DNA from: Carallia brachiata
Lineage: Eukaryota; Streptophyta; Magnoliopsida; Malpighiales; Rhizophoraceae
Length of the DNA stretch: 64,000 nt
NCBI GenBank assembly: GCA_021464245.1
Contig: JADCRB010000075.1
Location: 1,984,001 to 2,048,000 of the forward strand
Reading direction: 5' to 3'
Positions 8,288-63,434 of this stretch are shown here, one piece after another; positions within the stretch are counted from its first letter, which is position 1, and every line of letters starts with the position of its first letter. The translations under genes were made by a program, and so were the position numbers. The notes beneath the pieces are model-generated. The model searched no databases, was not told the origin of the DNA, and was given only the letters and a program-made list of their open reading frames with translations.

Positions 8288-16084
<7,797 letters not shown>

Positions 16085-26207: not shown

Positions 26208-26703
26208 NNNNNNNNNNNNNNNNNNNNNNNNNNNNNNNNNNNNNNNNNNNNNNNNNNNNNNNNNNNNNNNNNNNNNNNNNNNNNNNNNNNNNNNNNNNNN
26301 NNNNNNNNNNNNNNNNNNNNNNNNNNNNNNNNNNNNNNNNNNNNNNNNNNNNNNNNNNNNNNNNNNNNNNNNNNNNNNNNNNNNNNNNNNNNNNNNNNNN
26401 NNNNNNNNNNNNNNNNNNNNNNNNNNNNNNNNNNNNNNNNNNNNNNNNNNNNNNNNNNNNNNNNNNNNNNNNNNNNNNNNNNNNNNNNNNNNNNNNNNNN
26501 NNNNNNNNNNNNNNNNNNNNNNNNNNNNNNNNNNNNNNNNNNNNNNNNNNNNNNNNNNNNNNNNNNNNNNNNNNNNNNNNNNNNNNNNNNNNNNNNNNNN
26601 NNNNNNNNNNNNNNNNNNNNNNNNNNNNNNNNNNNNNNNNNNNNNNNNNNNNNNNNNNNNNNNNNNNNNNNNNNNNNNNNNNNNNNNNNNNNNNNNNNNN
26701 NNN
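26208..26703. other. Assembly gap (496 N)
   Basis: Unbroken run of N. It cuts the NLR on its left and abuts duplicated segment A on its right. Open frames made of unknown residues across it are artefacts. Confidence 1.
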
Positions 26704-44104: not shown

Positions 44105-47100
44105 TTTTGAATAATAATCATTATAAAAAGATTAAAAATTTAATTATTTTTTTCATTTGGAATTTCTTTAGGTCGTGAGTGTAAACAATAAATATAATTT
44201 GCCTCATTTCCATATCTGATATCTTTTTCAAATTTCAAGATTCAAACTAAAAATTTTAAGAAGGCATCTAAATTCTCAAAAACTATATATATATTTTTTG
44301 TTTAAACATGTGACGAGAACAAATTACAATTTCGTTTTTTTTTCGTTTCTTTATTAGTACGCATAATTGTTGGCTGCAGAAAGTAAACCATGCTGAACAG
44401 CTACGGTACCCAAGAACGAAATATTGATAAAAGCTATTTTCTTTGTGACATATGTATATCTGTTTATAGTCCTATCTGCAGCTGTATACTTCAACAAAAA
44501 AAGGAAAAAATGGAAAAAGGACAAATAAGAAATATTTAATTCAAAAAAGAGGCTCAATTTGGTGGACAGTTTACAAACACACACACTCTCTCTCACTAAC
44601 CATGCATTCCTAAGCCATCAATTATAAATAGCCAAAAGAGGCTATTCTTCGTTCCTTTTCTAAAGTCTTAATTTAATAAACAAATTATCGCGCCCATATC
44701 AATCATTCTAATGTCAAACCGGTTCATTTTTTTTTTTTTTTTTTTTCGTTTAGTACCATACGAGATAAAAAGACGTGAATTTATCTAAAATGTATAAAGA
44801 ATGTTATATATATTATTTTATGATGAATATTTAGTTGTTACCAAACGAAAAAATTCAATACCAAATAAGCCACCCGTTAGCCTTATGAATCACCAAGCTA
44901 AAACGAAAAATGAATGGAATCGTCCTATTTGAGGACAATCTCGAACTAAGGAGCTACTTAATAAATAATTAAATTTTATGGATATAAATTGGACACAATC
45001 ATAATTGCAAACTAAAAAATCCATAAAATGATGGAAAAAAAAATCAGCATTAAGAATTAGTAAGGATTTAATTTCATTTAGTAAAATTATTTAAATTGAT
45101 ACTACGTAATGTCATTTAATAATTTCACATTTGTCAGTATTTGTTCTCTTATCTAGAGTGTACAATTATCCATTTATCTATTGCCAATCAGGCCAACCTT
45201 AGGAATTTATATTTGGATCTAAAAAATGATCTAACTTATTGTTCGAGAAATTAATAAAGGAAAAAAACGTTCATGACAATTTGCATATTAATTTATGTTG
45301 GCATGAGAGGACAGAGGGGTAGAAAGAAAAAGAGTGGCACATGCATAGGCACAACTTTCATTTATAACCCAATAAAGATAACAAAAAAGTTATGAGAAAG
45401 ACAAATTTGGTCGTTGTTAAGTAAAAATGGTATACTCCTTTTATTTTTGAGGAAGTAAAAATGGTATACATTTTTTTTTTGTGAGGAAGAAAAAAAAATG
45501 TTAAACTAGAATGCACTAAAAAAATGACTTCTCGATTATGTTATTACATTATTAAGATTATTAGATAATAATTGGCATCCACTTGATGTGGTGGGTAGCT
45601 CTTACACGTCCGCAAAAATCTACCACCAATATCACTTAATCAAAATAGCCTAGTAAATTTTTTCCTTTGTTATTCGTCTTCATCTGTTGATTACTTGCGA
45701 ATCATAACAACAGTTGACCAAAAAATAAATTTTCCTAGGTTTTTGCATTAGCTAATTGACAGCACGAAAGCCGTGATCTTTCGGAAAATGAATTCTTACC
45801 ATATATTTATTCCTATAGAGTGTTGAAAATCTGAGAAAAATTAATCTGACTGAAAAAGACAATATAATTAATCAATTGATATTAGTTTAATCCCATTTTA
45901 TGAATAATAAAAAGGGCAGGAAAAATCTATACCATTGATTAATTAATGCGAGAATTAAAAAAAATAGGAATGTTGAGAAATTTAACATTCGGCAAAAATT
46001 AGGAGACAGTTATTACCGAAATTTGCACATACATACAAAGCCATTAATTTTGGCTAAAAAGAACAACAATTCCCCCACACTTCCTCTTTCGTCATTAATT
46101 TATACCTTCTCCACGGTAGCATTCATAGCGGACCCCATGTTTCTTGGTTTATGTAAGCCTAACACCACTTGCATGGAAGAAGGGGGTAAACAAAAAAAAA
46201 AAAAAAGAAAAAAGAGGAAGGAAAAAGTGAGAGAGACAAAAGGAGAAAATAAAAAAATTAAAAAAAAAACTCTTTCTCTCCCCCCTCCTTATTTATAAGA
46301 GCAGCCCACTAGAATTGTCGTTTTGGAGAGAATCATTTGCATTCCTGAGAGAGCAGACAATATTTTATCTAGGCAAAAATTATTTTTTTCCTTTTTTTTT
46401 TTCAGATGACAAAGATGGAAAAATATAAAAGAATTCTCAAATTCTTCCAGTTAGTTGTAATGCTACAAATCTTAGATTGTAACAATGAATGATATAAAAC
46501 GAACATTTTGCATGCAATCTGGCATTTTAATTCTAGTATCCTCATATATAAATTCTTTTTCTTTTTTTCACTTGATGCCTTTTCAAATGCAGAACGTTTT
46601 GCAAAAATAGTGTAAAACAAGGTTGCTTTGCTTGCCTGATATTTTCGGGCATGATTTCTTAAGCAGCTTATATTAAAAAGTGAATCAAAAGTGTTGATAT
46701 ATAGTTCAAGGTACCTCGCACAATCAACAAAATTTTGAACATGATAAATAGTAATTGTGGACGAGTCTTGACTGTTGACTGGCTATATATGCATTTTTTT
46801 TTTCAATTTTAGATACTCACTACGTTATATGACCTCGATGCCAAAAATTGTTGCAAGGATGAAAATTTTGTTTTCCAATTGGGAATAAAATCTTTTAGTG
46901 CACAGCAACGTTACTTTCTATTGGGTGGCCAAAATCAAATTTATTGGTACATATCCAATAACTTTTTTTATGTTCTACGAAACTGTTTTCTCTAATTTAT
47001 TGTTACAATGTTGTAAGTCCATTCCAACACAATTTTACTGAGGTTGTTATGTTAGCTATCATGTTGTCCCAAGCGAATTGTCCATTATTTACAGATAGAT

Positions 47101-48765
47101 GACAATTATTAGGTTGATAATTAAAATGTAATTAAAAAGTCATTTCCTGGTACATTTGAGTCTACGCCTTAATACAAAAAGATCTGCTAGATTCTCTTAG
47201 ACATGTCATATTGAATAAAAAAAAATATGTCAACAAATCAAAAAGTTACATAAGAAATGTGAGTTTGGATTCAACCTATTGCCATGTATAATTCATATTT
47301 GGAGAGAGAGTTGTTGGATTATATAGTCATTAACATTGAGATCGTGTATGGAGGAGGTCTATTCCAGTTCAATAATGTTCAGGTGATCCTTAATTTGACT
47401 CAGTCTACATGCCATGTACTTTTTTTATTGGTTCAAAAAAAAGTAAAATTCATAATCCTAAATCTTCTAATCATTTCTTATCACGTTTAGCAATATGGCA
47501 ATGATTCTATGCACATTTAGACGTGCGAAGAAGTATATTTATAAAATCCAGAACCTTAACCAAATTGCCCCACATTCCTAGTACTTCATCTATAACCAAA
47601 TTATACCTTATTTAATAAGTAGTTCATCGGCTCTTGATAAATAAATTGATGATATCCATCCTGACTTGTTTGTTTATGGCAGCTTGCAAGTGCGTGTCTG
47701 TTTATTTCCTTTGGAAAGTACTAATGTGTGTGTTTGCTATATATCCGTATGGTGATGGATTGTTTGTGAATATTATGTCACCATGTTATGTGTGGTCCTA
47801 TTATTAATTTCCTTTATTGGCTATGTTTGAATATTGCCATCCTCGTCTATATATATATATATATATATATGTTCCTAATTAACCTTTTACTATATAATAG
47901 TCGTTGGAGTAGTAAAATGTCATAAATTACACTGCAGATGTAATTAGGGATGAAAAACACTAAAAGCACCCACGTTCATGGCTTTGATCTAATTATCGTA
48001 AATAGTATTCAAAGTTTCATGACAAATATTTAACGGATATGATAAACGGGTGGATGACAATATTGGCTTCGATGGCTTCATTTTTAAGAGAGAACTACTG
48101 AGAGATTATAATCAAGAGCTTTCGAGTCTAATGACATCAATTTTCCTTTTTTTTTTTTTCAAATGAACAAATTTCACTGAATGCTAGATAATAAATTTCG
48201 CCAGCTTTAATTAGATCGCCAATTTACAATGTAAATAAATGTCTTGCGGGATACTTTGACTTTTACATCTATAAATTTATGAATAAATCGAGGCATAATT
48301 AACTCTCATTATTACACTATTTCGGGAGAGCTATTGGATCCATCTATGCCCCTTCAGGACAAATAAAATTATTATTTTTTTTCCATTGCATTTTTTTGTG
48401 AGGGTATACATGAAATAGACTTGAGGATGAAATACAGCTTCCCCCCCCCCCCCCCCGCGCTTCCTCTCTTAAAAAAGAAATAAGTTTGTTCACTGATTCA
48501 AATGTTCTTTTAATCGACCAACAAAAAGGTAAGGAATGCCCTATTAGTGTTGTTTGGCGATGATGATCTTAACAACTAAGACAAAGAATGTCTCATTTAA
48601 CGTTGATTTAATTTCGCCGCTCATGTTTGGAAAAAAGATCAAATCCTTTGACATTATTCTTTCTTTCTTTCTTTCTTGCTATGGGTGCCAGATATCGGAG
48701 ACGAATGGAAACCATCCTGGCTCAACCTACAGTGAATGTGCCGAGAAGAGTGCATAAATTAAGCA
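44105..48765. repeat. Duplicated segment C (gene-less copy, target of the retroelement)
   Basis: Matches B (31150-31900, 32024-33240, 34540-35720) and, very closely, A (26704-28800, against 45386-47400). It has an extra ~430-bp block at about 44845-45275. At 47637 it resumes the 3' flank of the lipid-transfer-like gene seen in B (GATAAATAAATTGATGATA and onward), but the coding part is absent, replaced by the A-type block. The outer LTR retrotransposon is inserted at its right end. An (AT)n microsatellite lies at about 47851-47871 and a C homopolymer near 48440-48456. Confidence 0.85.
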
Positions 48766-48770: not shown

Positions 48771-49395
48771 TGTAACGGGTAAATTTTGAGCTTGTAACAA
48801 TTAGGCTGCGAAAAATACAAACACAAATTACAGATAAAAATTTAAAATTTATGCGGGTTTGATCTCTGGGTAGATTCTCCGATTAATGCTCCTGTGTAAT
48901 TTAGTCAAGGGCCGTGGAGGCTTAATCTTGACCGAGAGATGTTGAATTTCCACAGCGTGACTTTGAACTGTAGGAAATGGATTCCACTGAGAGCCGAGAC
49001 TTCATCTCAAGTGGATTAGTTGAACTCCGGTGAGGGCCGTAGGAGGTTTGATCCCACTCGGATTGAATGGATTCCTACTCGAATTGGATGGACTCCGGTG
49101 AGAGCCGTAGGAGGCTCGATCCCACTCAGATTGGATGGACTTCGGTGAGGCCCGTAAGAGGTTTGATCCCACTCGAATTGATTGGACTCCGGTGAGGGCC
49201 GTAAGAGGCTTGATCCTACTCGAACTTATAATATTTTGATATTTTTAGATCTATACTCTCACAGATCCAGATCTGATACGATCGGAGAATATAAATCTAA
49301 AAATAACTTTTGAAACGGACACAGCAAATTTTTTTTGACTTTGTACCTGAGATATCTTCCTCAAAAAAGTTAAGAAAATATATCACAGAGTACGC
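48771..49395 (-). mobile_element. Outer element, left LTR, first part
   Basis: Starts TGTAACGGGTAAATTT like the right LTR (62565). By eye the two LTRs differ by scattered substitutions only, a few per hundred bases. The nested element interrupts it after TACGC at 49391-49395; the remainder resumes at 58052. Confidence 0.9.
49021..49225. repeat. Tandem repeats inside the outer left LTR (4 units)
   Basis: Four ~48-68-bp units each begin with ACTCCGGTGAGGGCCGTA or a close variant and contain GGCTTGATCCCACTCG. The same array occurs in the right LTR at 62815-63020, so it is a feature of the LTR itself, transcribed at both ends of the element RNA if these lie in R or U5. Confidence 0.85.
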
Positions 49396-50148
49396 TGTAA
49401 AACGTAAATTTCGAGTCTAAAACAATTAAACTCGAAAATATAAAAATAAATTACAAATAAAAATTGTAAAAGAAAAGAAAATTTACGTGGGGTCAATCTC
49501 CGTAGATCCTCCGATTAGTGTTCCTTTTTTGACTCGGTCAAGGGCTGCACGAGCTTGATCTTGACAGAAATAAATTTCACAACTTTTTCTTGAACTGGGT
49601 AGACTGAAACGGATCTGATTTGGACGTTTTGACTACGATTAAACCGCAGAGACCTGATCTGAGCCGATCTGGCTTAATTTCACCGAGGGTCGAAGGACTT
49701 GTTCTCGGATGAGCTGCCTGAATTTTACTGAGGGCCGTTGAGACTTAATCCCAGGATTTGTAGTAATTTGATATTTTCAGATTTATATCATAAATTCAGA
49801 TCTAGCGATCGAAAATATAAATCTAAAAATAACTTTGGAAATGGAAACAAATTTTTTGGGCCTTACCCTGAAATATCTCTCAAAAAGGAGTTAGGAGAGT
49901 ATACTGCAGAGTAAAAGCACGTAAGAAAAGGAGAAATTTTTTGAGAGATTTTCAAATTTTCTTTTTCTCTCAAATTCTCTGAATTTTTCTGTTTACAGAT
50001 TTGCTGAATGTCTTTGAACTGAGGCTGGGGGCCTTTTTATAGGCCCTCCAGAGAGGACCTTACGCACCAATCTTGAAATTCAAGATTGGTGGCTGCCAAT
50101 CTTCTCTTTTTTTTTTTTTTTTTTTTTAATTTGAAAAGGATGTTTACA
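49396..50148 (-). mobile_element. Nested element, 3' LTR (left copy)
   Basis: 753 bp, matching the right copy (57280-58046) except for scattered base changes and small indels. It includes the TATA-like box on the minus strand at 50031-50042 and the CAATCTTGAAATTCAAGATTG hairpin region around 50080. Confidence 0.9.
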
Positions 50149-50164
50149 ATGCCCCACTTCAAGG
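50149..50164 (-). other. Polypurine tract of nested element
   Basis: In sense orientation CCTTGAAGTGGGGCAT lies directly before the 3' LTR, the position of the plus-strand primer. The outer element has CCTTGAAGTGGAGGCATT in the same place (58295-58312). Confidence 0.65.
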
Positions 50165-50271
50165 GTCGGTAAGAAAAAATTTAAGAGATGATTCGAACCG
50201 AGTCTTGAAGTCCAGTTTGAAATTTGGAAACGTCTTGACGAACATTGAATCTTGGAGTCTTCTATCTTTGA

Positions 50272-50801
50272 CTATGCCTGCTGTTGTTGGATCGCAATAG
50301 GAATCCGATACGATCTTGAGAAAGTTAGCACCCCAGCCAATATAGAAATTGAAGCCTTGGCTCCAGGTGCATTCGAGCTTCCATAGCCCGCAAAGGATTT
50401 TTTATATCTCTTAAAGTTCCAGAGCTCTGGTGAGGATGATCCGGTAGGCAAAGAACTTGAACCTCCCCAAGAGGAAAGGCTCACTTGGAACTTAAGACCT
50501 GTGCACAGAGAGACTATGGTGATGATTCCCGAATCTGCTTCGACGTAAGGAGAGTAGTTGGAACTTCCCTGCACGTCGCTGCATTTGTAGATCCAGGAGG
50601 ACGATCAGAACTTCTCGGCTCACTGCGATAGATGTGAACTAAGGAGAGTAGTTGGAACTCCATGACACCGATGGCGTTGGAGATTGAGTTTCGAGGGCTT
50701 TTAAGGATCCCTCGAAGAAGACTACTCCTTCTTTTCTTAGCTCGTGCGCCTCCAACTTCTTGATCGAAGAACTTCCTGAGACAAGTGCAGAGACTAGCCA
50801 T
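50272..50801 (-). pseudogene. Second extra ORF of nested element, unrecognised
   Basis: Starts MASLCTCLRKFFDQEVGG and continues with a basic GARAKKRR stretch, then Ser-rich sequence including SSNYSPYVEADSG and the module SSWGGSSSLPTGSSSP. A frame change is needed near 50514-50574 to link the two halves. The same ORF, also broken, sits in the outer element (58421-58959), so it was part of their common ancestor. A TATATATA box lies about 50-60 bases upstream on the same strand. I do not recognise the family. It is not a retroviral gag or pol domain, so a host-derived segment is possible. Confidence 0.5.
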
Positions 50802-50849
50802 TTTCTTTTGAGAAAGAAGAGCTGAGGGGTGAATATTATAACTCGGGCA

Positions 50850-50868
50850 TGCAGGATATATATACAAA
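50850..50868 (-). promoter_or_regulatory. TATA-like element before second ORF (nested)
   Basis: In sense TTTGTATATATATCCTGC, some 50-65 bases before the ATG at 50801. The outer element has the equivalent TGTATATATATCCTGCGTG before its ORF (about 59003-59022). Conservation in both copies hints at an internal promoter; function is inference. Confidence 0.4.
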
Positions 50869-50984
50869 TAATAAAGAGTTTTTTTTTTTTTTTTTTGAAA
50901 AGTCAAAAAAGGTATGCAGAATCGGGTAGGGCCATCCACGTCCCTTTCCTGCATAAGAGACAAAAGAGGCAGCGGCTGACGCGT

Positions 50985-51075
50985 GTCACGAAAGTCGTTA
51001 CCGTGTGTGGCAGAAGTCGTTGCCGTGTGCTGCGGAAGTCGTTGCCGCGTGCTGGCAGAAGTCGTTGCACCTTAT
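50985..51075. repeat. 22-24-bp tandem repeat between WOX ORF and second ORF (nested)
   Basis: AAGTCGTTGCCGTGTGCTG-type units occur four times in a row. The outer element has the same array at 59136-59215. It lies where an upstream promoter region of the second ORF would be. Confidence 0.8.
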
Positions 51076-51088
51076 CTTGTCGGCCGTC

Positions 51089-51829
51089 CTAGCGGGGCCC
51101 GAGGTGCAACTCCAAGTCAAGCTCGACCTCGTCTGGTGGGCCGATGATTGATGTCAACGTCGACGTCGCTTTCCGGCTGGTTGATGCTGCCGGAATATTC
51201 TGGAAAGAGAGGCAAAGTTTCGCCGGAATGACTCCTTTCTGCTAGAAAATGTCCTCCTAGACTTAAGTACCTAGGAGGGATGAACCCTTGGCTGACTCCG
51301 TAAGACCACCAGGACCAGCGTGCATGCTCCCATGGGCTACGGCTTTGATGAATACCGTGAGAGACATTGTAGTGGAAGAACTCGGACCTGCTTCATTTGA
51401 CGGCGAAGTTGTACTGGTGGGATCTACCATCGGAACAGCAGACTGTTCTTTGGAAAAATCAGCTCTCAGTGCTGGTTTCTTCCTGCTTCTCCGATTCTGG
51501 AACCAATAAAACACATTTTTTCCTTCGATTGCCCCGAGTGGGCGCAATCGTGAGACAAGTTGGTAAATCTGAGATGCATTAGGCATAATACCTCCATTGT
51601 TGTGGAAGACTTCCTCTAGAATTTGCAGTTGCGCCATGGTTGGTTGCCATCTGTGCGGGGTGACCTTTCTTCTCCCTTGTCTTGAGGTTCTGCAACTGGT
51701 TCCATCTTTCTTGTGGCAGAGGAGCAAAGGTCTGGTGTGTGGTGAAGATCGATTGAGACTGATGCTGAGTTTCAGACTCAAACCCTCCGTCGCTTTTATA
51801 TTTTTGGGCCGTTCACAGTTTATACTCAT
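51089..51829 (-). pseudogene. WUSCHEL-related homeobox (WOX)-like ORF with EAR motif, nested copy
   Basis: A 188-codon frame (51829-51263) contains a WOX-type homeodomain at about residues 60-119: start RWQPTMAQLQILEEVF, then LRPLGAIEGKNVFYWFQNRR (helix 3, with the WUS-clade EGKNVFYWFQN signature). Downstream the frame is shifted by an indel. Past it, in another frame, lie GVSQGFIPP and a C-terminal ELDLELHLGPR before a stop at 51089-51091; LDLELHL is a classic EAR repression motif (TOPLESS binding in other plant proteins). WOX proteins are nuclear developmental transcription factors. Here the ORF lies inside an LTR retrotransposon, downstream of integrase and in sense with it, the place where Tat-lineage elements often hold extra ORFs. 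A TATA-like GAGTATAAAC overlaps the first ATG, so true translation may begin later. Confidence 0.85.
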
Positions 51830-51839
51830 GCGGGCCAGG

Positions 51840-52103
51840 AGTTGGATTGGATTTTGAACTTGGTTTCTGGACTGTGTTTGGAACTTGGAATTTTTTGGGT
51901 TTTGGGCTTTGAATTGAATTTGGGTTGATGTTTGGGTTTGGTTTGGATTTGGGTTTTTGGATCGAGTGTTTGGGTTTGGACTTTTGGATTTGGGTTGAGT
52001 GTTTGGGTTTTGGACTTAGTTTTGTGTTTGAATTGGGCTCAAGTGTTTGGGTTTGGATTTTTGGGTTTGGATTTTCGCTTGGACTTTCAGATCGGGACTT
52101 CCG

Positions 52104-52141
<38 letters not shown>

Positions 52142-52230
52142 ATTTTTTTTTTCTTCTCTTTTTTTTTTGATTTTTTTTGATTTTTTTTTTTTTTTTTTTT
52201 TTTTTTTCAAACATATTTACACATAATATT
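51840..52230. other. TTTGGG-rich and poly-T spacer upstream of the WOX ORF (nested)
   Basis: On + this is GTTTGGGTTT-type degenerate repeats (51840-52080) followed by near-pure T with a few G/C (52100-52207); in sense it is A-rich. The lysine- or phenylalanine-rich open frames it creates are not genes. Confidence 0.8.
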
Positions 52231-52315
52231 GTTTCAGAAATTTACCATTGATTGGGCCGATTCGGACGCCTTCTTGGTCTGACAGCATGTAAGCGTTGTG
52301 AGTAGGCCTCCTGCA

Positions 52316-55131
52316 CTAGTATGGCCCGTCCCATTTGGAAGTAAGCTTGTCACCAGGCCGATGCTTCATGTTGATGGGCCGTCGCACTGCAAGAACAAGG
52401 TCTCCAACTTGAAAAGATCGAGGGCGGACCCTGCGGTTGAACGTGTTGGTGAGCCGGGCTTGGTAGCACTCAAGTTTGTTGTGCTTCGAGCCTCCTTTCA
52501 TCGGGCTTCTAACTCATCCAGACGTAGGCGAGCATTCTCCTCCTGTGTGAGTCCTTCCAGAACAGCCATGCGCAGGGATGGAATCTGTGTTTCCAACGGC
52601 AGTATTGCTTCGACACCGTAGACAAGTGAGTATGGCGTCGCCTGTGTTGGAGTCCGGTAAGTTGTACGATACGCCCATAATGCCTCCGGAATTCTGTCAT
52701 GCCAATCTCTTTTGGATTTAGAGACTACCTTCCGCAACAGGTTGCATAAGGTCTTGTTGAATGCTTCGGCCAAGCCATTTGCTGGGGCATTGTACATGGA
52801 TGACTTGTACTGCTTGAACTTGAACTTCTCGCAGAGCTTGTCGATAAGCTGTTGTAGAACTGCTTACCATTATCAGTGATGATGAATCGAGGGACTCCAT
52901 AGCGATAGATCAGCTGAGTCCGGATGAAATTGGCAACATGCTCCTTCTTTACCTCTCTAAGTGGAATGGCTTCAGCCCATTTTGAGAAGTAGTCGGTTGC
53001 TGCGAGGATGTACAGGTGACCCAGGGATGACTTTGGCAAGGGCCCCACTAAGTCGAGACCCCAAGCTTCAAAGGGCCAGGATGAGACAGTTGGATGCAGT
53101 GGCTCCGGTGGTTGATGTATGTAATTCGCATGAAATTGACAAGCTTGACAGGTTTTAGCAAACTCAATTGAATCACGTACCATGGTTGGCCAGTAGTATC
53201 CCATCCTTCTGAGTTGGAAGTGCAACTTAGGCCCGATTGATGTCCGCCACAAACACCAGAATGTGCTTCAGTGAGAGCCTGTTTTGCCTCTTCATTGGCT
53301 AGGCAGCGAAGTAGAACTCCATCAAAAGACCTTCGATACAGAGCATCCTTGAGATATATGAAGCGGGGAGCTCGTCGTTGAATTTCTGTCTTATGACGAC
53401 GATCTTCGGGCAGCTTCCCGTGCTGTAGGTAGTCAATGATTGGTTGACGCCAGTCCTCGTCCTCCGCGAGACGTACAGATACAGCATTGGCTGTTGTAGT
53501 TTCTTCATCATCCTTTTGTGGCACTATCCATTTCTGGCATACGGCAACAACTGTAGCCTGGATTTCTGACTTTGCAAGAGAAGTGGCCAGGTTAGCCAAC
53601 GCGTCTGCCTGAGTGTTTTCTCGTCGAGGCACATGCTCCAAGGTGATGCTTTCAAATTCATCCATTAGCTGTCGAGCACGTTGATGGTAAGGCGCAAGGT
53701 CCTCTTTCTTCACGTCATACAATCCTGTAAGTTGGTTGATGACGAGCTGGGAATCTCCATGGACTTCTATAGTTGGAATCGAGAATGATAGCATATGGTA
53801 GTATTTGTCGTTGAGGAGTGACAAACACTATGCCAGCACCAGCACCATCACGCCTTGCTGCACCATCAAAGAACATCGTCCATGGTGGTAGTGTCTCAAT
53901 GTAAAAGACCTCTTCATCTGGAAGATCATCTGTGAACTCCCAATCTGACGGAATAGGGTGATCTGCAAGGAAGTCTGCTAGGGCTTGTCCTTTGACTGCT
54001 TTTTGAGGCACGTAGACAATGTCGTAGCTTTGTAGGATTACTGCCCACTTGGCAAGTCGTCCTAACAAGATTGGTCTGGATAAGATATATTTGACAGGAT
54101 CAGCTCTGGCAATGAGACGTACCGTGTGAGCTTGCATGTAGTGCCTCAGCTTGTCAATGGCAAAGAACAGTGCTAGACATGTCTTTTCAATGGGCGAATA
54201 ACTCAGCTCCGGACCGTTTAGTGTTCTGCTCAAGTAGTACAGGGCAACTTCCTTTCCCTGCTCGTTTTCCTGTGCAAGCAAGGCTCCCAAAGATCTTTCC
54301 TGCGCTGCAATGTAGAGAATCAACGACTTTCCTTGAATTGGAGCACCTAGGACCGGTGGATTGGAAAGGTACTTCTTTATGCTCTCAAAGGCTTTGCTGC
54401 AAGCTTCGTCCCACTCGAAGTTGACATCCTTCTTCATCAACCGATGGAAAGGTTGACATCTCCCAGCTAAATTGGAGATAAAACGGCGAATGTAAGCCAG
54501 CTTTCCTTGTAGACTTCACAGCTCGTGCAGGTTTTTAGGTTCATGCATCTTTTGAATTGCCTCAACCTTTGACTGATCAACTTCGATTCCACGATGGCGC
54601 ACCACGAATCCAAGAAACTTTCCTGATGTGACACCGAATGCGCACTTGAGAGGGTTCATTTTGAGCTGATGCCTCCGAAGTCTTTCGAACACTGTCTTGA
54701 GATCCTCGAGGTGGTCTTTGCACTTCTTAGTCTTTACAACTAAGTCATCAACATAACATTCTACACTCTTTTGGGGTGCGGAATGCTGTCAACTTCTCGT
54801 CTTCTGGTGCCATTCTGATTTGGTTATAGCCTGAAAAACCATCCATGAAGGACAATGCTTCGTGACCCGTTGTTGCATCGACTGTGATCTCCGTTGTTGC
54901 ATCCTTGAGTTCATCAACAGTTGCTTGGCCACCATCTTCAAGTTCCGGGGGAGCCTCCTTCACTTTACCATCTGATGAGTCGGAATCAGCCTCCTTGCTA
55001 ATTGTGACATGAAATGTAGAACCTCTGACTTCACCTTCTTTGTTTGACTGGATAAGCCTTCTAGACGTCGTAACTTCGACACATAGTGCAGGAATGTGAT
55101 GGTGCTTGCAGATGGAGCCTCCTACAGGCAA
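52316..55131 (-). pseudogene. Ty3/gypsy pol, decayed (RT remnants, RNase H, integrase)
   Basis: Sense order from 55131: a protease-RT linker (acidic, PPELEDGG), then an RT piece SFMDGFSGYNQIRMAP, then the YVDD catalytic motif (54744-54755), but the ~35-40 residues normally between FRTPKG and VECYVDD are missing, as is the first third of RT. A stop lies near 54525 in the connection domain (LHEL*). RNase H (54440 to about 53650) has FFDGAARRDGAGAG and later VHGDSQLVINQL, split by a frameshift near 53820. Integrase (about 53400-52500) shows the CQACQ zinc-finger half, catalytic Asp in GLDLVGPLPK, Asp in ITDNGKQF and Glu in GLAEAFNKTL, again with frameshifts. A C-terminal piece ends VGDLVLAVRRPINMKHRPG. 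The motifs fit the Tat lineage. No active enzyme can be made from it. Confidence 0.9.
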
Positions 55132-55159
55132 AGTTCGGTAGGCTGTGGCTGCTTCTCAC

Positions 55160-55500
55160 CTGTTAGGGTCTGGTGTTTTATTGTCGCCTTTTATACTCGT
55201 GCGAGCAGGAGTGTTGAATTGTGGTGTCGCCTTTTATGCTCGTGCGAGGCAGGAGCGTTGAACTGTGATGTCGCCTTTTATACTCGTGCGAGACAGAGTG
55301 TTGACTGTGAGATTGTTAGCCTTTTATACTCGTGCGAGGCAGGAGTGCTAAACTGTGATGGATTGATTATCGCCTTTTATACTCGTGCGAGCCAGGAGTG
55401 TTGAACTGTGGAGCTGTTCGCCTTTTATACTCGTGCGAGGCAGGAGTGTTGAATTGTGGAGCTGTTCGCCTTTTATACTCGTGCGAGACAGGAGTATTTT
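55160..55500 (-). repeat. TATA-box minisatellite, 7 units (nested)
   Basis: Units of ~40-50 bp, each with CGCCTTTTATACTCGTGCGA on +, at about 55191, 55231, 55274, 55320, 55371, 55420 and 55468. On the sense (minus) strand each unit gives CGAGTATAAAAGGCG, i.e. a TATAAAAGG box. Between units are AGGAGTGTTGAATTGTG-like spacers. The array separates gag debris from pol. Confidence 0.9.
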
Positions 55501-55700
55501 GTTGAACTGGTGAGCTGTGGAGCCGGAGAGTTGGTGAGCTGCTGAGCTGTTGAGCTGCTGAGTTGTTGAACTGTTGAGCTGTTGAGCTGCTGAGTTGTTG
55601 AGCTGTTGAGCTGTTGAGCTGCTGAGCTGTTTGGTAAGCTGCTTAGCTGTTGAGCTACTGAACTGTTTGGTGAGCTATTGACCTGCTGAGCTGGACTTTG
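55500..55700. repeat. GAGCTGTTGAGCTGCT-type 9-bp repeat (nested)
   Basis: Imperfect 9-bp units (GAGCTGCTG / GAGCTGTTG) run next to the minisatellite. The outer element has the same block at 60520-60700, so it belongs to the family. Confidence 0.85.
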
Positions 55701-55879
55701 ATTCAGGGTTTAAGTTTTACCCTCGAATCTGGATTTAGACTTGGAATTTAGATTTGGGCTTTGAGCCCGAGTTTAGCCGAGTTTATGTTTGGCTTTGAAT
55801 TTGTTGACTTTTTGAGTCGGGATTTGATTGGATTTGCCCCCAAATCTAAATTGAATTTTGATGAGGGTTCTGACATGCA

Positions 55880-56042
55880 CAAGAACTTCAGACATTTTTT
55901 TTTTTGCCTTTGTGCTTCTCTTTTTTTTTTTTACCTTTTTTTTTCTTTTTTTGAATTTTTGGCCCCTTTTTTTTTTCTTTTTTTTTTTTTTGAGAATTTT
56001 TTTCTTTTTTTGTATTTTTTTAATTTTTTTGATTTTTTGGGA

Positions 56043-56078
<36 letters not shown>

Positions 56079-56145
56079 AATTTTTTTTTCTTTTTTTTTT
56101 GAGAATTTTTTTTTTCTTTTTTTTTTTATTCTTTTTGACATAACA
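55880..56145. repeat. T-rich low-complexity tract (nested)
   Basis: Near-homopolymer T on + (A in sense) between the gag stub and the repeats. Lysine-rich or phenylalanine-rich frames here are artefacts. Confidence 0.9.
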
Positions 56146-56227
56146 GTAGTTCTGAAATTTACCTGCTTTATTGGGTCAGGTCGAAATGCATTTCTGACCT
56201 GATAACATGGAAGCATTTTTTTTTGAA

Positions 56228-57011
56228 CTAGACATGACCCCTCCCACTTGGAAATGAGCTTGTGGCTGAGTCGGTACTCTCGTCCTTCTGTTGGTCCGAT
56301 TGGCTAAAAACTGTGCCCCCAAATCGAGATGATTGAGGACGATCTTCGCGGTTGACTGCATCAGCGGGTTGGGCTTGGTGAAGCCCTTTGTTAACGTCAT
56401 CTATTTGCTGTCTTAATTCCTTCATATTTTCAATCAACTGTGCATATCCGCTAATCAGCTGTGAATATCCGCGGTTTAAATCTGCAAACATTTTTTCTAT
56501 TCTGGTGGTGTTGGTCAGCCTGACATCAGCAGCGGTAGATGGTTCTCCACGGAAGACTGTTGTAGAGGGCCCGTCGGATCTTTCCTGACTTGTTTCAGCA
56601 CAACGCGTTGGATTTTGCTGTTCAGCAGAATTTGATGCTCTATAGAAGACTGGAGTAGAGGGATCTTCTTCTTCCTCTGTGTTCTTGTGCAGAATAGGTC
56701 GGATTCTGTTGTTGGGCAGAATTTGATGCTCTACCCCTAACTTCGGTAGGGGTAGGTGATCGACTCCTCTGTTTAGTGACAGAGTCACGTGAGAAATCTA
56801 ACTGCTGTGTGAGCTGCAAGTCCTCAATTTTAACTTGTGTTGGCGGGAGGAACTTTGTTCTTGCGCGAGTCTGTGGACTCAATTGAGTGGCAAGAAACTG
56901 TGTCCGTCCGCGGGTTTGTGGTCCTGCGTACCCAGGTAGGGTAGTTGATGCAGGCAATGGAGCCGTTGCCTTCTTTTTTGAAGCAATGGTTGTACTCCTT
57001 TTTGGTGCCAT
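56228..57011 (-). pseudogene. Gag N-terminal remnant, nested element
   Basis: Starts MAPKRSTTIASKKKATAP directly after the leader; a basic, proline-rich, presumably disordered head follows, then repeats of the form RASNSAEQQNPTR, then a helical stretch (NRGYSQLISGYAQLIENMKE) that looks like a coiled coil. A frame change is needed near 56640-56788. The Retrotrans_gag capsid core seen in the outer element (EFLNRFFSTRRTVS type) is missing; an A-rich tract replaces it. Function in an intact relative would be particle assembly. Confidence 0.65.
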
Positions 57012-57257
57012 TTGATGTGCTGAACACCTTGTTAAATTTTTTTTTTTTCACTTTTTTTTTTTTACTTTTTTACCTTTTTCGTCTTTTTCTCTATTTTGTC
57101 TTTTTCTCTTTTTCTTTTTCTTTTTCTTTTTTTTCCTTTTCTTCGGCTCTTTTCTTTTTTCCTTTTTTTTTCTTTTTTTCTTTTCTTTTTTCTCGGCTCT
57201 TTTCTTTTACCTTTTTTTTTTTTTTTTTAAGGAACAAGAGATGGGAGGTGAAGTTGT
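57012..57257. other. Leader of nested element, T-rich on +
   Basis: T-rich with TTTTTCTTTTTC repeats (A/G-rich in sense) between PBS and the gag start. No gene. Confidence 0.6.
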
Positions 57258-57279
57258 CCCACCGAGCGTGCCAAAAATT
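57258..57279 (-). other. Primer-binding-site region, nested element
   Basis: In sense TTTTTGGCACGCTCGGTGGG follows the 5' LTR directly. The outer element has TTGGCACGCTCGGCGGGAT in the same place (62541-62564). The matching tRNA was not determined. Confidence 0.6.
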
Positions 57280-58046
57280 TGTAAAGCGTAAATTTCGAGT
57301 CTAAAACAATTAAACTCGAAAATACAAAAATAAATTACAAATAAAATTTAAAAAAAGAAAATTTACGTGGGGTCGATCTCCGTAGATCCTCCGATTAGTG
57401 TTCCTTTTTTGACTCCGTCAAGGGCTGCACGAGCTTGATCTTGACAGAAATAAATTCCACAACTTTTTCTTGAACTGGGTAGACTGAAACCGGATCTGAT
57501 TTGGACGTTTTGACTACGGTTAAGAACCGCAGAGACCTGATCTGAGCCGATCTGGCTTAATTTCACCGAGGGTCGAAGACTTGTTCTCGGATGAGCTGCC
57601 TGGATTTTGCTGAGGGCGCGTTGCTTAATCCCAGCCGGATTTGTAGTAATTTGATATTTTTAACTCTATATTCTCAAATTCAGATCTAGCGATCCAAGAA
57701 TATAAATTTAAAAATAACTTTAGAAATGGAAACAGCAAATTTTTTGGGCTTACCCCTGAAATATCTCTCAAAAAGGAGTTAGGAGAGTATACTGCAGAGT
57801 AAAAGCACGTAAGAAAAGGAGAAATTTTCTTGAGAGATTTTCAAAATTTTCTTTTTCTCTCAAATTCTCTGAATTTTTCTGTTACAGATTTGCTGAATCT
57901 GTTTTGAACTGAGGCTGGAGGCCTTTTTATAGGCCCTCCAGAGAGGACCTTACGCCACCAATCTTGAAATTCAAGATTGGTGGCTGCCAATCTTTCTTTT
58001 TTTTTTTTTCTTTTTTTTTTTTTTTAATTTGAAAAGGATGTTTACA
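57280..58046 (-). mobile_element. Nested element, 5' LTR (right copy)
   Basis: 767 bp. Sense start TGTAAACATCC, end CGCTTTACA. It has a minus-strand TATA box (CTATAAAAAGGC, 57921-57932) about 115 bases in and a perfect 14-bp inverted repeat at 57955-57983 with a one-base centre (CCACCAATCTTGAA / TTCAAGATTGGTGG). Confidence 0.92.
57921..57932 (-). promoter_or_regulatory. LTR TATA box, nested element
   Basis: CTATAAAAAGGC in sense; the same sequence is conserved in the other LTR at 50031-50042. It is the best candidate for the element's core promoter, giving a short U3 of ~140 bases. Confidence 0.6.
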
Positions 58047-58294
58047 TACGCAAAAGAAAATTTTCTTGATAAACATTTAATTTTTTTTTTTTTGCTCTCT
58101 CTCTTGTTTGCTTTTTTTTTTTCGCTTGCTGCCCTGATTCAATTTGGGGGGAGGCCAATTTAAGGCCTCCCCCGCTGTCTGCCACCAACCATTTGGTTGG
58201 TGGCATTCAATTTAGGTTGGCAGCTGCAACCTTGACTTCAAGGTTGGCGGCTGCCAACACTTCTTCTTCTTTTTTTTTAATTTACTTGTTTATA
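58047..58294 (-). mobile_element. Outer element, left LTR, remainder after the nested insertion
   Basis: Begins with the duplicated target TACGC (58047-58051), then CAAAAGAAAATTTTCTTG as in the right LTR from 63190. The end reads TTTATA in place of TTTACA, a single change at the terminal CA. It holds an inverted repeat around 58216-58258 (GTTGGCAGCTGCAACCTTGA and its partner). Confidence 0.9.
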
Positions 58295-58420
58295 AATGCC
58301 TCCACTTCAAGGGTTGGTAAGGAAGAATTTTACAGAAATGATCCGAACCGAGTCTTGAAATCCAGTTTGAAACTTGAGATGTCTTGATGAACATTGAATG
58401 TTGAAGCTTTCTATTTCCGG

Positions 58421-58959
58421 CTAGACCTGCTTTTGTTGGATCTTAACAGGAAACAAATACGATCTTGAGAAAGTTAGTAGCCCAGCCAATGCAAAAATTG
58501 AAGTCTTGGCTCCAGGTGAGTTCGAGCTTCCATAGCTCGTAAAGGCTAGCAAAGGTTCTTTGAAGTTCCAAAGCTCTGGTGAGGATGATCCGGTAGGTAA
58601 AGAACTTGAACCTCCCCAAGAGGAAGGCCCAACACTTCGGAACTTCAAGACCTGCACACAGAGAGACTGACTGTAGTGATGACTCCCGAGTCTGCTCCGA
58701 CGTAAGGAGAGTAGTTGGAACTTCCCTGTACGTCGTCGCATCTAAAAAAAAGATTAGGATGATTACAGCGTCTCATCCCTCTGTGGTAGATGTGAATTAA
58801 GGAGAGTAGTTGGAACTCCATGACACCGATGGCATTGGAGACTGAGTTTCGAGGGCTTTTAGGGATATCTCGAGGATGACTACTCCTTCTTTTCTTAGCT
58901 CGTGCGCCTCCAACTTCTTGATCAAAGAACTTCTTGAAACAAGTGCAGAGACTAGCCAT
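58421..58959 (-). pseudogene. Second extra ORF of outer element, unrecognised
   Basis: Starts MASLCTCFKKFFDQEVGG, then the same basic and Ser-rich modules as in the nested element (GARAKKRRSS; SSWGGSSSLPTGSSSP). The reading frame changes near 58645-58741, a different break from the nested copy. It sits ~270 bases downstream of the WOX-like ORF and just before the polypurine tract. Unknown family; presence in two elements with different LTRs shows it is an old part of the family. Confidence 0.5.
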
Positions 58960-59225
58960 TTTCTTTTGAGAAGAAGAAGAGCTGAGGGGTGAGTATTATA
59001 ATTCGGGCACGCAGGATATATATACATACAATAAAGAGTTTTTTTTTTTTGAAAAGTCAAAAAGAAGGTACGTAGGGTTATCCACGTCCCTTTCCCGCAT
59101 AAAAGACAAAAGAAGGCAGCGGCTGACGCGTGTCACGAAAGTCGTTACCGTGTGCTGCAGAAGTTGTTCCCGTGTGCTGCAGAAGTCGTTGTCGTGTGTT
59201 GTAGAAGTCGTTGCACCTTATCTTA

Positions 59226-59976
59226 TCAGCCGTCCTGGCGAGGCCCGAGGTGCAACTCTACGTCAAGCTCGGCCTCGTCTGGTGGGCCGATGATGTTGAC
59301 GTCGCTGGAGCCTTCCAGCTGGTTGATGCTGCTGGAATATTCTTGGAAGAAAGGCAAAGTTTCGCCGGAATGACTTCTTTCTAATAGAAAAGTCCCTCTT
59401 GAACTTAAGTACTTAGGAGGAATGAACCCTTGGCTGACTCCGTAAGACCACCAGGACCAGCGTGCATGCTCCCATCGGCTACGGCTTTGATGAACATACC
59501 GTTGATAGACCATTGCAGTGGAAGAACTCGGACCCGCTTCATTTGAGGGCGAAGCTGTACCGATGGGATCTACTATCGGAATGGCAGACTGTGTTTTGGA
59601 AAAAGCAGTTCTCAGTGCTGGTTTCTTCCTGCTTCTCCGATTTTGGAACCAATAAAACACATTTTTTCCTTCGATCGCCCCGAACGGGCGCAATTGTAAG
59701 ACAAGTTGATAAATCTGAGGTGTATTAGGAATAATACCTCCATTGTTGTGGAAGACTTCCTCCAAAATTTGCAGTTATGCCATTGTTGGTTGCCACCTTG
59801 TGCGGAGTGACCTTTTTTCTCTCTTGTCTTGAGGTTCTGTAACTGGTTCCATCTTTCTTGTAGTAGAGGGGCAAAGGTCTGGTATGTGGTGAAGATCGGT
59901 TGAGACTGAGGCTGGGTTTCAGACTCAAACCCTCCATTGCTTTTATATTTTTGGGCCGTTCACAGTTTATACTCAT
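59226..59976 (-). pseudogene. WOX-like homeodomain ORF with EAR motif, outer copy
   Basis: Same protein as in the nested element. The first 83 codons (59976-59725) run into a frameshift at the start of the homeodomain (KKVTPHK then out of frame). In the next frame (59765-59226) helix 1 resumes at EEVFHNNGGIIP, then AIEGKNVFYWFQNRRSRKKP, a Ser/Pro linker, GVSQGFIPPKYLS, and the C-terminus ELDVELHLGPRQDG before the stop. This copy keeps the C-terminal frame open that is broken in the nested copy, while the nested copy keeps the homeodomain start. LDVELHL is one residue off the LxLxL EAR form LDLELHL. It lies immediately downstream of the TATA minisatellite. Confidence 0.85.
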
Positions 59977-60059
59977 GCGGGTCAGGAGTTAAACTAGATG
60001 TTGAGTGTGTGAATTTTGTGTTTGGGCTTTGACTTTCGCTTGGGCTTTCAGATCGGGAC

Positions 60060-60505
60060 TTCCGTTTTTTTTTTGGGCCGTTCACAGTTTATACTCATGT
60101 GGGCCAAGAGTTTAGTTTGCTGGATTGTTCACCTTTTATACTCATGCAGAGCAGGAGTGTGCTGTAGTTGATCGCCTTTTATACTCGTGCGAGGCAAGAG
60201 TGCTGAATTGTGGTGTCGCCTTTTATAATCGTGCGAGGCAGGAGTGTTGAACTGTGATGTCACCTTTTATACTCGTGCGAGGCAGAAGTGCTGAATTGTG
60301 GTGTCGCCTTTTATACTCGTGCGAGGCAGGAGTGTGCTGTAGTTGATCGCCTTTTATACTCGTGCGAGGCAGGAGTGCTGAATTGTGGTGTCGCCTTTTA
60401 TACTCGTGCGAGGTAGGAGTGTTGAATTGTGGTGTTGTTTTTATACTCGTGCGAGGCAAGAGTATGCTGCTGTTGATCGTCTTTTATACTCGTGCGAGGC
60501 AGGAG
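60060..60505 (-). repeat. TATA-box minisatellite, ~9 units, upstream of WOX ORF (outer)
   Basis: Regular 43-44-bp units at about 60130, 60173, 60216, 60260, 60305, 60348, 60393, 60437 and 60480, each with CTTTTATACTCGTGCGAGGC on +; in sense each gives a GAGTATAAAAGGCG box. Degenerate units (GTTTATACTCATG) lie at about 60087 and 59967, the last overlapping the WOX ORF start. Confidence 0.9.
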
Positions 60506-61080
60506 TGCTTTGTTGTGGAGCTGTTCAGTTGACAAGCTGCAGAGCTACTGAGCTGTTGAGTTGTTTGTTGAGCTGTTGAGCTGCTTGTTGAGCTGCTGAG
60601 CTGTTTGTTGAACTGCTGAGCTGCTTGTTGAGCTGCTGAGCTGGCGAGCTGCTGAGCTGTTTGTTGAGATGTTGAGCTGGTGGGCTGGTGAGCTGCTGAG
60701 TTTTTGACTTGGGTTTAGATTTAGGGTTTAGGCTTTGCCCTCGAATCTGGATTTAGGCTATGGGTTGGCATTTAAATTTGGAATTTGAGCCCGAGTTTAG
60801 ATTTGGTGAATTTGGGCTTTGGGATGAGGTTTGAGTTTAGGCTTTTTGGGTCTGGATTTGAATTTGGGCTTTGAGTCGGCATTTGAGATTTGCCCCCGAA
60901 TCTAAATTTGAATTTTTTTTATGAAGGGTTCTGACAATGCACAAGAGCTCTAGATTTTTTTTTTTTGCTTTTTTTTTTCATTTGTTGCCTTTTTTTGTTT
61001 TTCTTTTTATTTCTTTTTTTATTTTTCTCTTTTTTTTTATTTTTTTTTGCCTTTTTTTTTGCTTTTTTTTTTTACACAGT
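60506..61080. other. Repeat and T-rich spacer (outer)
   Basis: Holds GAGCTGTTGAGCTGCT-type 9-bp repeats (60520-60700), GGATTTGGGCTTTG-type degenerate repeats (60700-60900) and a T-rich tract (60950-61075). No gene. It takes the place where protease to integrase would stand in a full element. Confidence 0.7.
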
Positions 61081-61145
61081 AAATTTAGAAGTTTACTGTT
61101 TGATTGAACCAAGTCGGGATGCGTTGACAGCATGCAAGCGTAAAT

Positions 61146-62479
61146 TCATGTTGACTTTCTTCTGACGGATTTGAAGGGACGACAGTCTGGTTGACTGAGA
61201 CTATGTCTCCTTGGTCCAAATGATTTATTTTGGTCTATGAGCTTTAAGATCAGCTCCTTTAAGACGAAGCACTTCTCGGTTGGATGGTGTTGTGCGGTGA
61301 TACCTGCAGAATTTCGGATCTTGACCCGATCCTTGTGATTGGGTTGCTTACATTCCGGAAGTTTGATCAACTTAGCTTCTAAAAGTTGATCGAGAATGTC
61401 TGGAACGTCGGAGTCGGGGAATGGATACTTCTTCTGTTCCAACTCTCGCAAGGTCGTCCTTCCCTTTTCTTGTTGTTTTAGTTGATTTGTCACCGCTGGA
61501 GGACTCATTTTTGCTTTAGCTCCAACTTTTATCGGTGAAGCATCAATGGCCATCACTTCCTTGCCCCCATGTTGGCTCAGTTGGATGGGAATCGTGCCCC
61601 TAGAGGTCTTGATACTTATTTCCATGTCATGCGCGCGAGTTGCTAATTCCTCAAAAGTTCGAGGTTTGATGCCCTGCAGAATGTATAATAGCTCCCAGTG
61701 CATCCCCTGGATGCACATCTCCACACCATAAGTCTCCGTAAGTTGATCTTTGCAGTCTAGATTGAGAGCACGCCATCTGTTGATGTATTCGACAACGGGC
61801 TCTCCTTTCCTTTGTTTGATACTAGAAAGCTCCATCATGCTCACCGTTCTCCGAGTGCTGAAAAATCTGTTGAGAAACTCTCGTTGTAGTTGTTCCCAAC
61901 TGTCGATTGATTCTGGTTCAAGGATTATGAAACACGTGAAAGCGGTCTCTCTAAGCGAACGAACAAACTGTTTCACCAAGAGATCACCGTAAGTCCCTGC
62001 ATTGTTGCAGGTTTCAACGAAGTAGGCGACGTACTGTTTGGGATCGCCTCTTCCGTCAAATTGTTGAAATTTGGCGGTTGGTTAGCCCAAAGGCATGTTC
62101 AGACTTCGATCCGTCTGGGTGTACGGTTTGACGTACATCTGTGATCCTTGGAAGGATGTAGCTTATTGTATACGGATCGTATTTGCTATCATATCCTGCA
62201 ATTGTTGAACAGATAGCGAAGCTACAGAATTTGAGGGTGGCAGCTGTGTAAAACTACCTGGTTGTGTTTTTCAGCAGTGAAGACATTGGCTGGTGTGGCT
62301 TCTGGAGTGAAACCGAGTGGATATGCTTGCTCTTTGCGGGTCTCGGGATCAACTTGGATCAGGGTCTTTCCTTTGAGGGCAGCGATCTGTTGATCTTTTT
62401 CTTCCACAACTTTGAGCAGTTGGAAAATTCAGCTTTCCAATTCTACAATCCTGTCTTCAATGTTCGTTGCACTTGACAT
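61146..62479 (-). pseudogene. Ty3/gypsy gag, outer element
   Basis: In sense the start MSSATNIEDRIVELES is followed at once by a stop, then the frame goes on (QLLKVVEEKDQQIAALKGKT, a coiled-coil-like stretch) to a second stop near 62222. After frame changes the capsid core is open from 61979 to 61146: LVKQFVRSLRETAFT, WEQLQREFLNRFFSTRRTVS, EPVVEYINRWRALNLDC, MCIQGMHWELLYILQGIKP, which is the Retrotrans_gag domain of Tat-type elements. A C-terminal region YPFPDSDVPDILDQLLEAKL and EKCFVLKELILKL precedes the missing protease. It would form the virus-like particle shell in an intact element. No pol follows. Confidence 0.85.
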
Positions 62480-62564
62480 TGTGATTGCTGGATTTGTGGT
62501 TTTTTTTTTTTTAGAGGAGCAAAAGATGGGAGGCAGAGATATCCCGCCGAGCGTGCCAAAAATT
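62480..62564 (-). other. Primer-binding region and leader, outer element
   Basis: In sense AATTTTTGGCACGCTCGGCG starts at the LTR border, matching the nested element's PBS region. The leader to the gag ATG is short (~85 bases). Confidence 0.6.
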
Positions 62565-63434
62565 TGTAACGGGTAAATTTGGAGCCTGTAACACTTAGGC
62601 TGCGAAAAATACAAACACAAATTACAGATAAAAATTTAAAATTTATGCGGGTTCGATCTCTGGGTAGATTCTCCGATTAATGCTCCTGTGTAATTTAGTC
62701 AAGGGTCGTGGAGGCTTAATCTTGACCGAGAGATGTTGATTTTCCACAGCGTGATCTTGAACTGTAGGAAATGGATTCCACTGAGAGCCAAGGCTTCATC
62801 TCAAGTGGATTAGTTGAACTCCGGTGAGGGCCGTAGGAGGCTTGATCCCACTCGGATTAAATGGATTCCTACTCGAATTGGATGGACTCCGGTGAGAGCC
62901 GTAGGAGGCTTGATCCCACTAGGACTGGATGGACTTCGGTGAGGGCCGTAAGAGGTTTGATCCCACTCGAATTGATTGGACTCCGGTGAGGGCCGTAGGA
63001 AGCTTGATCCCACTCGAACTTATAATATTTTAATATTTTTAGATCTATACTCTCACAGATCCAGATCTGATACGATCGGAGAATATAAATCTAAAAATAA
63101 CTTTCAAAACGGACACAACAAAGTTTTTTTGACTTTGTACCTGAGATATCTTCTTCAAAAGAGCTAAGAAAATATATCACAGAGTACGCAAAAGAAAATT
63201 TTCTTGATAAACTTTTAATTTTTTTTTCTTCTCTCTCTCTCTTGTTTGCTTTTTTTTTTTTTTCGCTTGCTGCCCTGATTCAATTTGGGGGGAGGCCAAT
63301 TTATAGACCTCTCCCGCCTGTCTGTCACCAACCATTTGGTTGGCGGCATTCAATTTAGGTTGACAACTGCTAACCTTGACTTCAAGGTTGGCGGCTGCCA
63401 ACACTTTTTTTTTTTTTTAATTTACTTGTTTACA
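62565..63434 (-). mobile_element. Outer element, 5' LTR (right copy, intact)
   Basis: 870 bp from TGTAAC to TTTACA. It holds the four-unit tandem repeat (62815-63020), a minus-strand TATA-like GGTCTATAAATTGG (63297-63310; the left copy is mutated there), and an inverted repeat near the end (GTTGGCGGCTGCCAAC region). It has a single TACGC at 63185-63189, the unoccupied equivalent of the nested insertion site. Confidence 0.92.

Follow-up and report, generated by a model that had tools for sequence, protein, structure and literature searches.

Plant long terminal repeat (LTR) retrotransposons can carry host-type genes in addition to gag and pol. When the LTR elements of 121 angiosperm genomes were screened for additional domains, 15 uncommon ones were reported, those named being PMD, G-patch, AIR1, DUF1409, YgdH, L26, B3, ArgoL2 and 2-ODD (PMC9289625). 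The same work describes (i) Ty3/gypsy elements of Phalaenopsis, in which an AlkB (2-ODD) N6-methyladenosine (m6A) demethylase gene is fixed as an extra open reading frame (ORF), its product being active on RNA in vitro, and (ii) Gypsy consensus sequences with YgdH (LONELY GUY type), B3, PMD or ArgoL2, i.e. regulatory or developmental host domains (PMC9289625). Other elements, including Retand and Grande, have ORFs in antisense orientation in the region from pol to the 3' LTR and contain tandem repeats (PMC11963269, PMC7264820). Here, we analysed a 64,000-nucleotide stretch of Carallia brachiata DNA (the window; assembly GCA_021464245.1, contig JADCRB010000075.1, positions 1,984,001 to 2,048,000), in which two LTR elements, A and B, each carry a gene resembling WUSCHEL (WUS), the plant stem-cell regulator and a member of the WUS clade of the WOX homeodomain family, ahead of the 3' LTR.

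The locus is comparable to the Phalaenopsis elements in that a host-type gene has become an extra Gypsy ORF, but here the product is a predicted developmental repressor and not an RNA demethylase. It shares with the Gypsy consensus sequences the regulatory or developmental nature of the added domain, whereas a homeodomain is not named in the screen section of that paper, and the strings 'homeo', 'wus' and 'wox' are absent from its main text. Like Retand and Grande, the elements contain tandem repeats; unlike theirs, the extra gene is in sense orientation and has its own TATA-like box, and no TRP28 match was found in the ORFs scanned. According to the Retand survey, known domains are not encoded by any of the sense ORFs located between pol and the 3' LTR (PMC11963269). 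Among the literature matches listed, as judged from titles and abstract openings, none described an LTR element with a homeodomain or a WUS gene. We favour, with a probability of roughly 0.62, an old capture of a WUSCHEL-type gene by a Ty3/gypsy (Tat-type) family, in which it has since been retained as an accessory gene, located after pol and ahead of the 3' LTR.

Two nested elements with a WUS-like gene

Self-comparison of the window and inspection of element ends revealed two complete LTR elements, both on the minus strand (running from high to low coordinates), one nested in the other. The WUS-like gene and its motifs are located as follows:

51085..51705 (low end approximate), minus strand: WUS-like gene of element A, MEP start at 51705
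51464..51655, minus strand: homeodomain, copy A
51195..51221, minus strand: WUS-box ETLPLFPEY, copy A, in a frame other than that of the homeodomain
51101..51121, minus strand: EAR (ethylene-responsive element binding factor-associated amphiphilic repression) motif LDLELHL, copy A, outside the ORF of 188 amino acids (aa)
59226..59852, minus strand: WUS-like gene of element B, MEP start, 208 codons and a final stop in a single frame
59610..59798, minus strand: homeodomain, copy B
59337..59363, minus strand: WUS-box position, degenerate (ETLPFFQEY), copy B
59247..59267, minus strand: EAR-type motif LDVELHL, copy B
51794..51800 (A) and 59947-59941 (B), minus strand: TATAAAA, 95 bases upstream of the MEP start in both

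The elements themselves comprise:

49396..58046, minus strand: element A, a complete LTR element with TG...CA ends, inside the 3' LTR of element B
58051-58047 and 49395-49391: target-site duplication (TSD) GCGTA (5 bp) flanking A
57280..58046, minus strand: 5' LTR of A
49396..50148, minus strand: 3' LTR of A
48771..63434, minus strand: element B, the outer element, split by A
63439-63435 and 48770-48766: TSD AATAC (5 bp) flanking B
62565..63434, minus strand: 5' LTR of B
58047..58294, minus strand: first part of the 3' LTR of B, the remainder (about 49395-48771) lying past element A

Both copies are sense to their element and placed before its 3' LTR, and the initial annotation was correct in putting the gene between integrase and the 3' LTR, sense to pol. 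Its claim of a second copy in an element with a different LTR also holds: this copy (59852-59226) belongs to B, the two elements are nested and have their own 5-bp TSDs, and their LTRs are largely different, alignable only in part. Since A is nested in B, B was inserted before A. Judged by LTR divergence (34/740 aligned sites differ in the pair of A; 11/241 and 28/629 in the two parts of B), the two insertions appear to have been close in time. The gene, together with the stretch running on to the 3' LTR, is common to A and B (86.8% identity over 1,726 columns). Upstream of it, the interiors of both elements contain diverged tandem-repeat arrays and A-rich runs (55180-55986 and 60088-61048), which are 74-87% identical, though the surrounding gag and pol regions differ. 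The TATAAAA box is a predicted promoter of the WUS-like gene.

Neither copy has an intact frame. Copy B is free of frameshifts but is interrupted by one in-frame stop (59777-59775), which falls within helix 1 of the homeodomain. Copy A has indels just before the homeodomain, after the linker and near the C-terminus, and because of these three indels its WUS-box and homeodomain are in different frames and its EAR motif lies past stops. The initial annotation had taken 51089-51829 as one open frame; in fact the ORF at this place runs from 51829 to 51263 (188 aa) and joins an out-of-frame leader to the homeodomain. The MSINCERP start of this ORF was rejected as the true N-terminus, as comparison with copy B shows its first 58 or so residues to be leader, read in a frame other than that of the homeodomain. 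The EAR repressor motif announced earlier does exist in the DNA of copy A, and as LDVELHL in B, but the 188-aa ORF stops short of it. The copies may well have broken only after insertion.

Domains of gag and pol were found at these positions:

54516..55155, minus strand: reverse transcriptase of A (RVT_1 in two ORFs), broken into frames
53715..54437, minus strand: Ty3-type RNase H of A (RT_RNaseH_2 1.1e-23, RT_RNaseH 2.6e-23)
53048..53794, minus strand: second RNase H of A (RVT_3, 2.5e-13)
52498..53267, minus strand: integrase of A, broken into frames (rve 1.4e-08 in 52725-53204)
61146..62081, minus strand: gag of B (Retrotrans_gag, E=6e-14)

The order reverse transcriptase, Ty3 RNase H, second RNase H, integrase is present in element A only. 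Two RNase H domains, the second archaeal-type and followed by integrase, are what we take to be the mark of Tat-type Ty3/gypsy elements, and the best reading of the family is Ty3/gypsy of Tat type, the lineage for which the initial annotation had mentioned extra ORFs in this slot. The ORF 52498-52863, a part of the integrase of A, gave no Pfam match. No pol was found in B (five pol pieces of A were compared and none matched B), the gag of B matched nothing in A, and a gag capsid was not recognised by Pfam in the one ORF scanned from the gag region of A (56228-56797). Membership in Retand was rejected: no antisense TRP28 (PF04195) ORF was found (no Pfam match up to E 0.05 in 7 plus-strand ORFs scanned, a subset of all), and the region between pol and the 3' LTR of A is too short (about 2.35 kb, 52498 to 50148), lying outside the Retand range of 2,933-6,566 bp (PMC11963269).

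Database matches of the B gag come from Rosa, Malus, Cucumis, Nicotiana and others. The best by E-value share about 57-60% identity with the query across 91% of its length, and among the matches listed the most similar one reaches 74%, across half of it. The top match is a 354-aa protein labelled Salmonella enterica, from a contig of 1,120 bases (P0129), which is probably plant contamination of a bacterial assembly.

Resemblance of the gene to WUSCHEL

The WUS-type homeodomain with the EGKNVFYWFQN signature, reported in the initial annotation, is confirmed for copy A by Pfam (PF00046, E=5.4e-12) and by the best PDB sequence match, WUSCHEL 6ry3, STENOFOLIA being the second. In the predicted structure, whose input alignment included WUS proteins, the predicted local distance difference test score (pLDDT) is 95-97 in the block of residues 61-110 and 83 at residues 111-120, and low outside the homeodomain (overall mean 65). 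A Foldseek comparison with the PDB gave 43 matches, the best 11 of which are all WUS or STENOFOLIA. A chance homeodomain is ruled out by the Pfam, PDB sequence and Foldseek matches.

An insertion at Y54, in helix 1, has been called WUS-specific (PMC7203112). Both copies have this extra helix-1 residue, F-H replacing Y-Y. The inserted residue occurs in 24/24 rows labelled WUS and 0/17 other WOX rows, a count that is not independent of the trait, as the rows were labelled by database name or else by sight. The counterparts of the WUS DNA-binding residues R38, K82, N83, Y86, Q89, N90 and R94 (PMC7203112) are identical in the element homeodomain (7/7). At position 36 the element has R (L-R-T-R-W in copy B; in A the R, which precedes the indel, is the same), while 23/24 WUS rows have S. 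In WUS, a serine-to-arginine change at this position kept TGAA binding and shifted the TAAT complex toward typical homeodomains (PMC7203112), so the element protein, with its arginine, may read both TGAA and TAAT.

The C-terminal motifs were compared with the published definitions of the WUS-box (TLxLFPxx) and the EAR motif ([LVI]x[LVI]x[LVI]) (PMC9781121). The WUS-box of A (51221-51195), which the initial annotation did not mention, fits exactly (TLPLFPEY, shifted frame) and the sequence of B (TLPFFQEY) does not; the C-terminal EAR pattern is present in both. In 20,000 shuffles of the last 128 residues of B, TLx[LF]F arises in 0.14%, its combination with an EAR motif of the published type close to the C-terminus in 0.01%, and the stricter LxLxL (which fits A, not B) in 0.19%.

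The gene thus has in common with WUSCHEL the MEP start, the homeodomain with the inserted residue and contact residues, the WUS-box (in A) and the EAR-type end. It differs from WUSCHEL in (i) its location in a retrotransposon, (ii) the homeodomain of A, which is only 47-53% identical to WUS (mean 51%), the rows labelled WUS being 80-100% identical among themselves, (iii) its length (208 codons, compared with about 235-303 residues in complete-looking WUS rows), and (iv) the recognition helix, N-R-R-S-R and not N-H-K-A-R, along with position 36.

A homeodomain tree was built from 43 rows (41 database rows hand-picked from 128 returned proteins, and the two copies) and 64 columns, few enough to leave most forks open; WOX4, 5, 7, 11 and 13 are not knowingly represented. 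Copies A and B are joined (99/100) on a long branch. The data reject neither a grouping with WUS (approximately unbiased test, p-AU 0.49) nor one with other WOX (p-AU 0.37). Because the tree leaves the donor subfamily open, the WUS assignment rests on the inserted residue, the WUS-box and the EAR-type end together.

A first protein search returned 9 WOX proteins with identity up to 52%. A profile of the ORFs of both copies matched 3,146 proteins, and among the best 120 of these none exceeds 58% identity to the query. Relatives of the WUS-like gene were not confirmed in viral_contigs and genome_contigs, nor were relatives of the RNase H ORF in viral_contigs. Judged by the gag identities, the host itself seems to be absent from the protein collection, so that little weight attaches to the fact that no other WUS-bearing element appears in it.

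Proposed retention and alternative explanations

The preferred reading builds on the observed anatomy, nesting, motif architecture and kept contact residues. The gene would have been captured probably as spliced RNA, since the homeodomain and the C-terminal motifs are contiguous, and retained long enough to lose about half of its homeodomain identity, with the recognition helix, WUS-box and EAR motif kept. Two sublineages with different LTRs would then have inherited it, A with pol and B with gag and without pol. The long retention proposed in the initial annotation fits how far the gene has diverged from host WOX proteins; selection between the two copies is not shown, and neither copy is intact.

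The control by neutral drift speaks to the same point. When the sequence drifted to 52% homeodomain identity, a 188-codon frame stayed open in 1.25-1.5% of 400 runs (an approximate figure, as the control starts from the 188-aa ORF of A, including the out-of-frame leader), and the 12-residue helix-3 motif survived in 0/400 runs at each of two kappa values. This control is blind to whether the constraint acted in the element or in the host donor. Within the 3' region, the gene differs between copies at 72/617 sites and the rest at 96/481 (p=1.9e-4), i.e. the gene is slower. The ratio of nonsynonymous to synonymous change (dN/dS) between the copies is 0.48 (27 nonsynonymous and 15 synonymous differences in 179 codons, the stop codon of B being left out); after subtraction of LTR divergence (0.048, taken as the share that arose after insertion), rough arithmetic gives dN of about 0.02 and dS of about 0.09.

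Several results weigh against this reading. Both copies are now broken genes, and the evidence consists of only two copies at one locus. The dN/dS check suggested with the initial annotation gave, for these two copies, no significant sign of constraint, as 10% of 5,000 random placements are as low as 0.48; codon positions 1, 2 and 3 differ 16, 10 and 16 times, with no third-position excess. The gene is not slower than the spacer (21/199, p=0.80) or the leader (9/124, p=0.21), so its slow change is not special to it. As for the WUS type, the homeodomain of A is no closer to WUS than to other WOX (38-57% identity, mean 52%), the nearest tree rows by path are P0077 and P0092 (named WOX1) and not WUS, and the published EAR pattern occurs in the last 16 residues of 4.25% of the shuffles, so that alone it is not rare. 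A fast-evolving host WOX donor is compatible with the data, and WUS-type sites show no clear excess in three LTRs. Selection in the element lineage is supported, not proven; retention for function is the best reading of the deep divergence and is not proven by the two copies.

The strongest competitor, although unlikely, is passive capture, in which an ancestral element picked up a WOX complementary DNA that had no function and was carried along by replication. It would account for the broken state of both copies, the dN/dS not significantly under the neutral expectation and a divergence resembling that of non-coding spacer and leader, and plant LTR elements often carry passenger genes (672 in rice and 1,343 in sorghum; PMC3726574). 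Drift, however, would be unlikely to leave the frame open and the recognition helix untouched at about 50% homeodomain divergence, and the gene was kept in both sublineages despite their differences in gag and pol.

Less credible than passive carriage is a recent capture of a fast-evolving, divergent host WOX that is not in the databases, the divergence having arisen in the host. The apparent lack of the host from the databases and the unsettled donor subfamily would suit this explanation, but the capture is older than the divergence of A from B, whose LTRs can be aligned only in part, and the 58% ceiling among the best 120 profile matches also speaks against it. The least probable alternative is self-regulation, a variant of the preferred reading with another target, in which the WUS-like protein would bind the LTR and control element transcription: DNA-binding accessory proteins have been proposed as regulators in Retand elements (PMC11963269), but when three LTRs were put through 21 motif tests, one came out low, as chance allows (TTAATSS in the 5' LTR of B, 3 against 0.64 expected, 4% of 200).

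The most conserved DNA of the 3' region lies beyond the gene:

50631..50870, minus strand: TATA-like box, CT-rich leader and a frame beginning MASLCTC (ATG at 50801; in B, ATG at 58959), 3' of the WUS-like gene

Only 16/240 of its sites differ between A and B, compared with the 96/481 in the rest. Protein constraint on the MASLCTC frame was rejected (dN 0.067, dS 0.068 over 57 codons) and its ORFs gave no Pfam match; the stretch may be a conserved promoter or RNA and not a protein gene.

Elsewhere in the window, two direct repeats of 1.97 kb (26704-28660 and 45384-47344; 96.4% identical, 18.7 kb apart) are LTR-like and could delimit a large element. The interval that they bound contains an ORF for a copia-type integrase (42266-42832) as well as a subtilase fragment (38551-39084), and the left repeat adjoins a run of N (26208-26703). 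Two further ORFs, at 14251-15084 and 25064-25855, are fragments of host genes, the one of glycosyl-hydrolase family 116 (DUF608), the other with RPS2-like leucine-rich repeats.

Shoot stem cells as a possible site of action

Meristem cells are the precursors of the plant germline, as gametes come from the shoot stem cells that WUSCHEL maintains. WUS represses partly via TOPLESS, which binds the EAR motif (PMC9781121). Of the 54 transposable element families whose expression is elevated in the vegetative shoot stem cells of Arabidopsis, 26 are LTR elements (PMC7560203), and WUS has a part in keeping RNA viruses out of stem cells (PMC10589665, where Wu et al. 2020 is cited). For these reasons, an element-borne WUS-like repressor could mimic WUS or compete with it. 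Its product would enter the nucleus and bind DNA by the kept contact residues, at presumed targets of TGAA type and perhaps also TAAT; the EAR motif would recruit a TOPLESS-type corepressor, and host genes would be repressed in meristem cells, where the gene would have to be expressed and the element would presumably benefit. That the family's own small WUSCHEL works in shoot stem cells in this way, either by holding cells in the state from which the germline is supplied or by competition with host WUS and its part in virus exclusion, so that a retroelement would steer the stem-cell programme of its host to reach the next generation, is a doubtful proposition at present.

If the capture and retention of the gene are as we propose, a developmental regulator would join the few host genes that have become fixed in LTR elements of plants, and a retrotransposon would be linked directly, at the molecular level, to the stem-cell regulator. 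Whether retroelements of plants interfere with meristem fate or with the defence of stem cells would then become a testable question.
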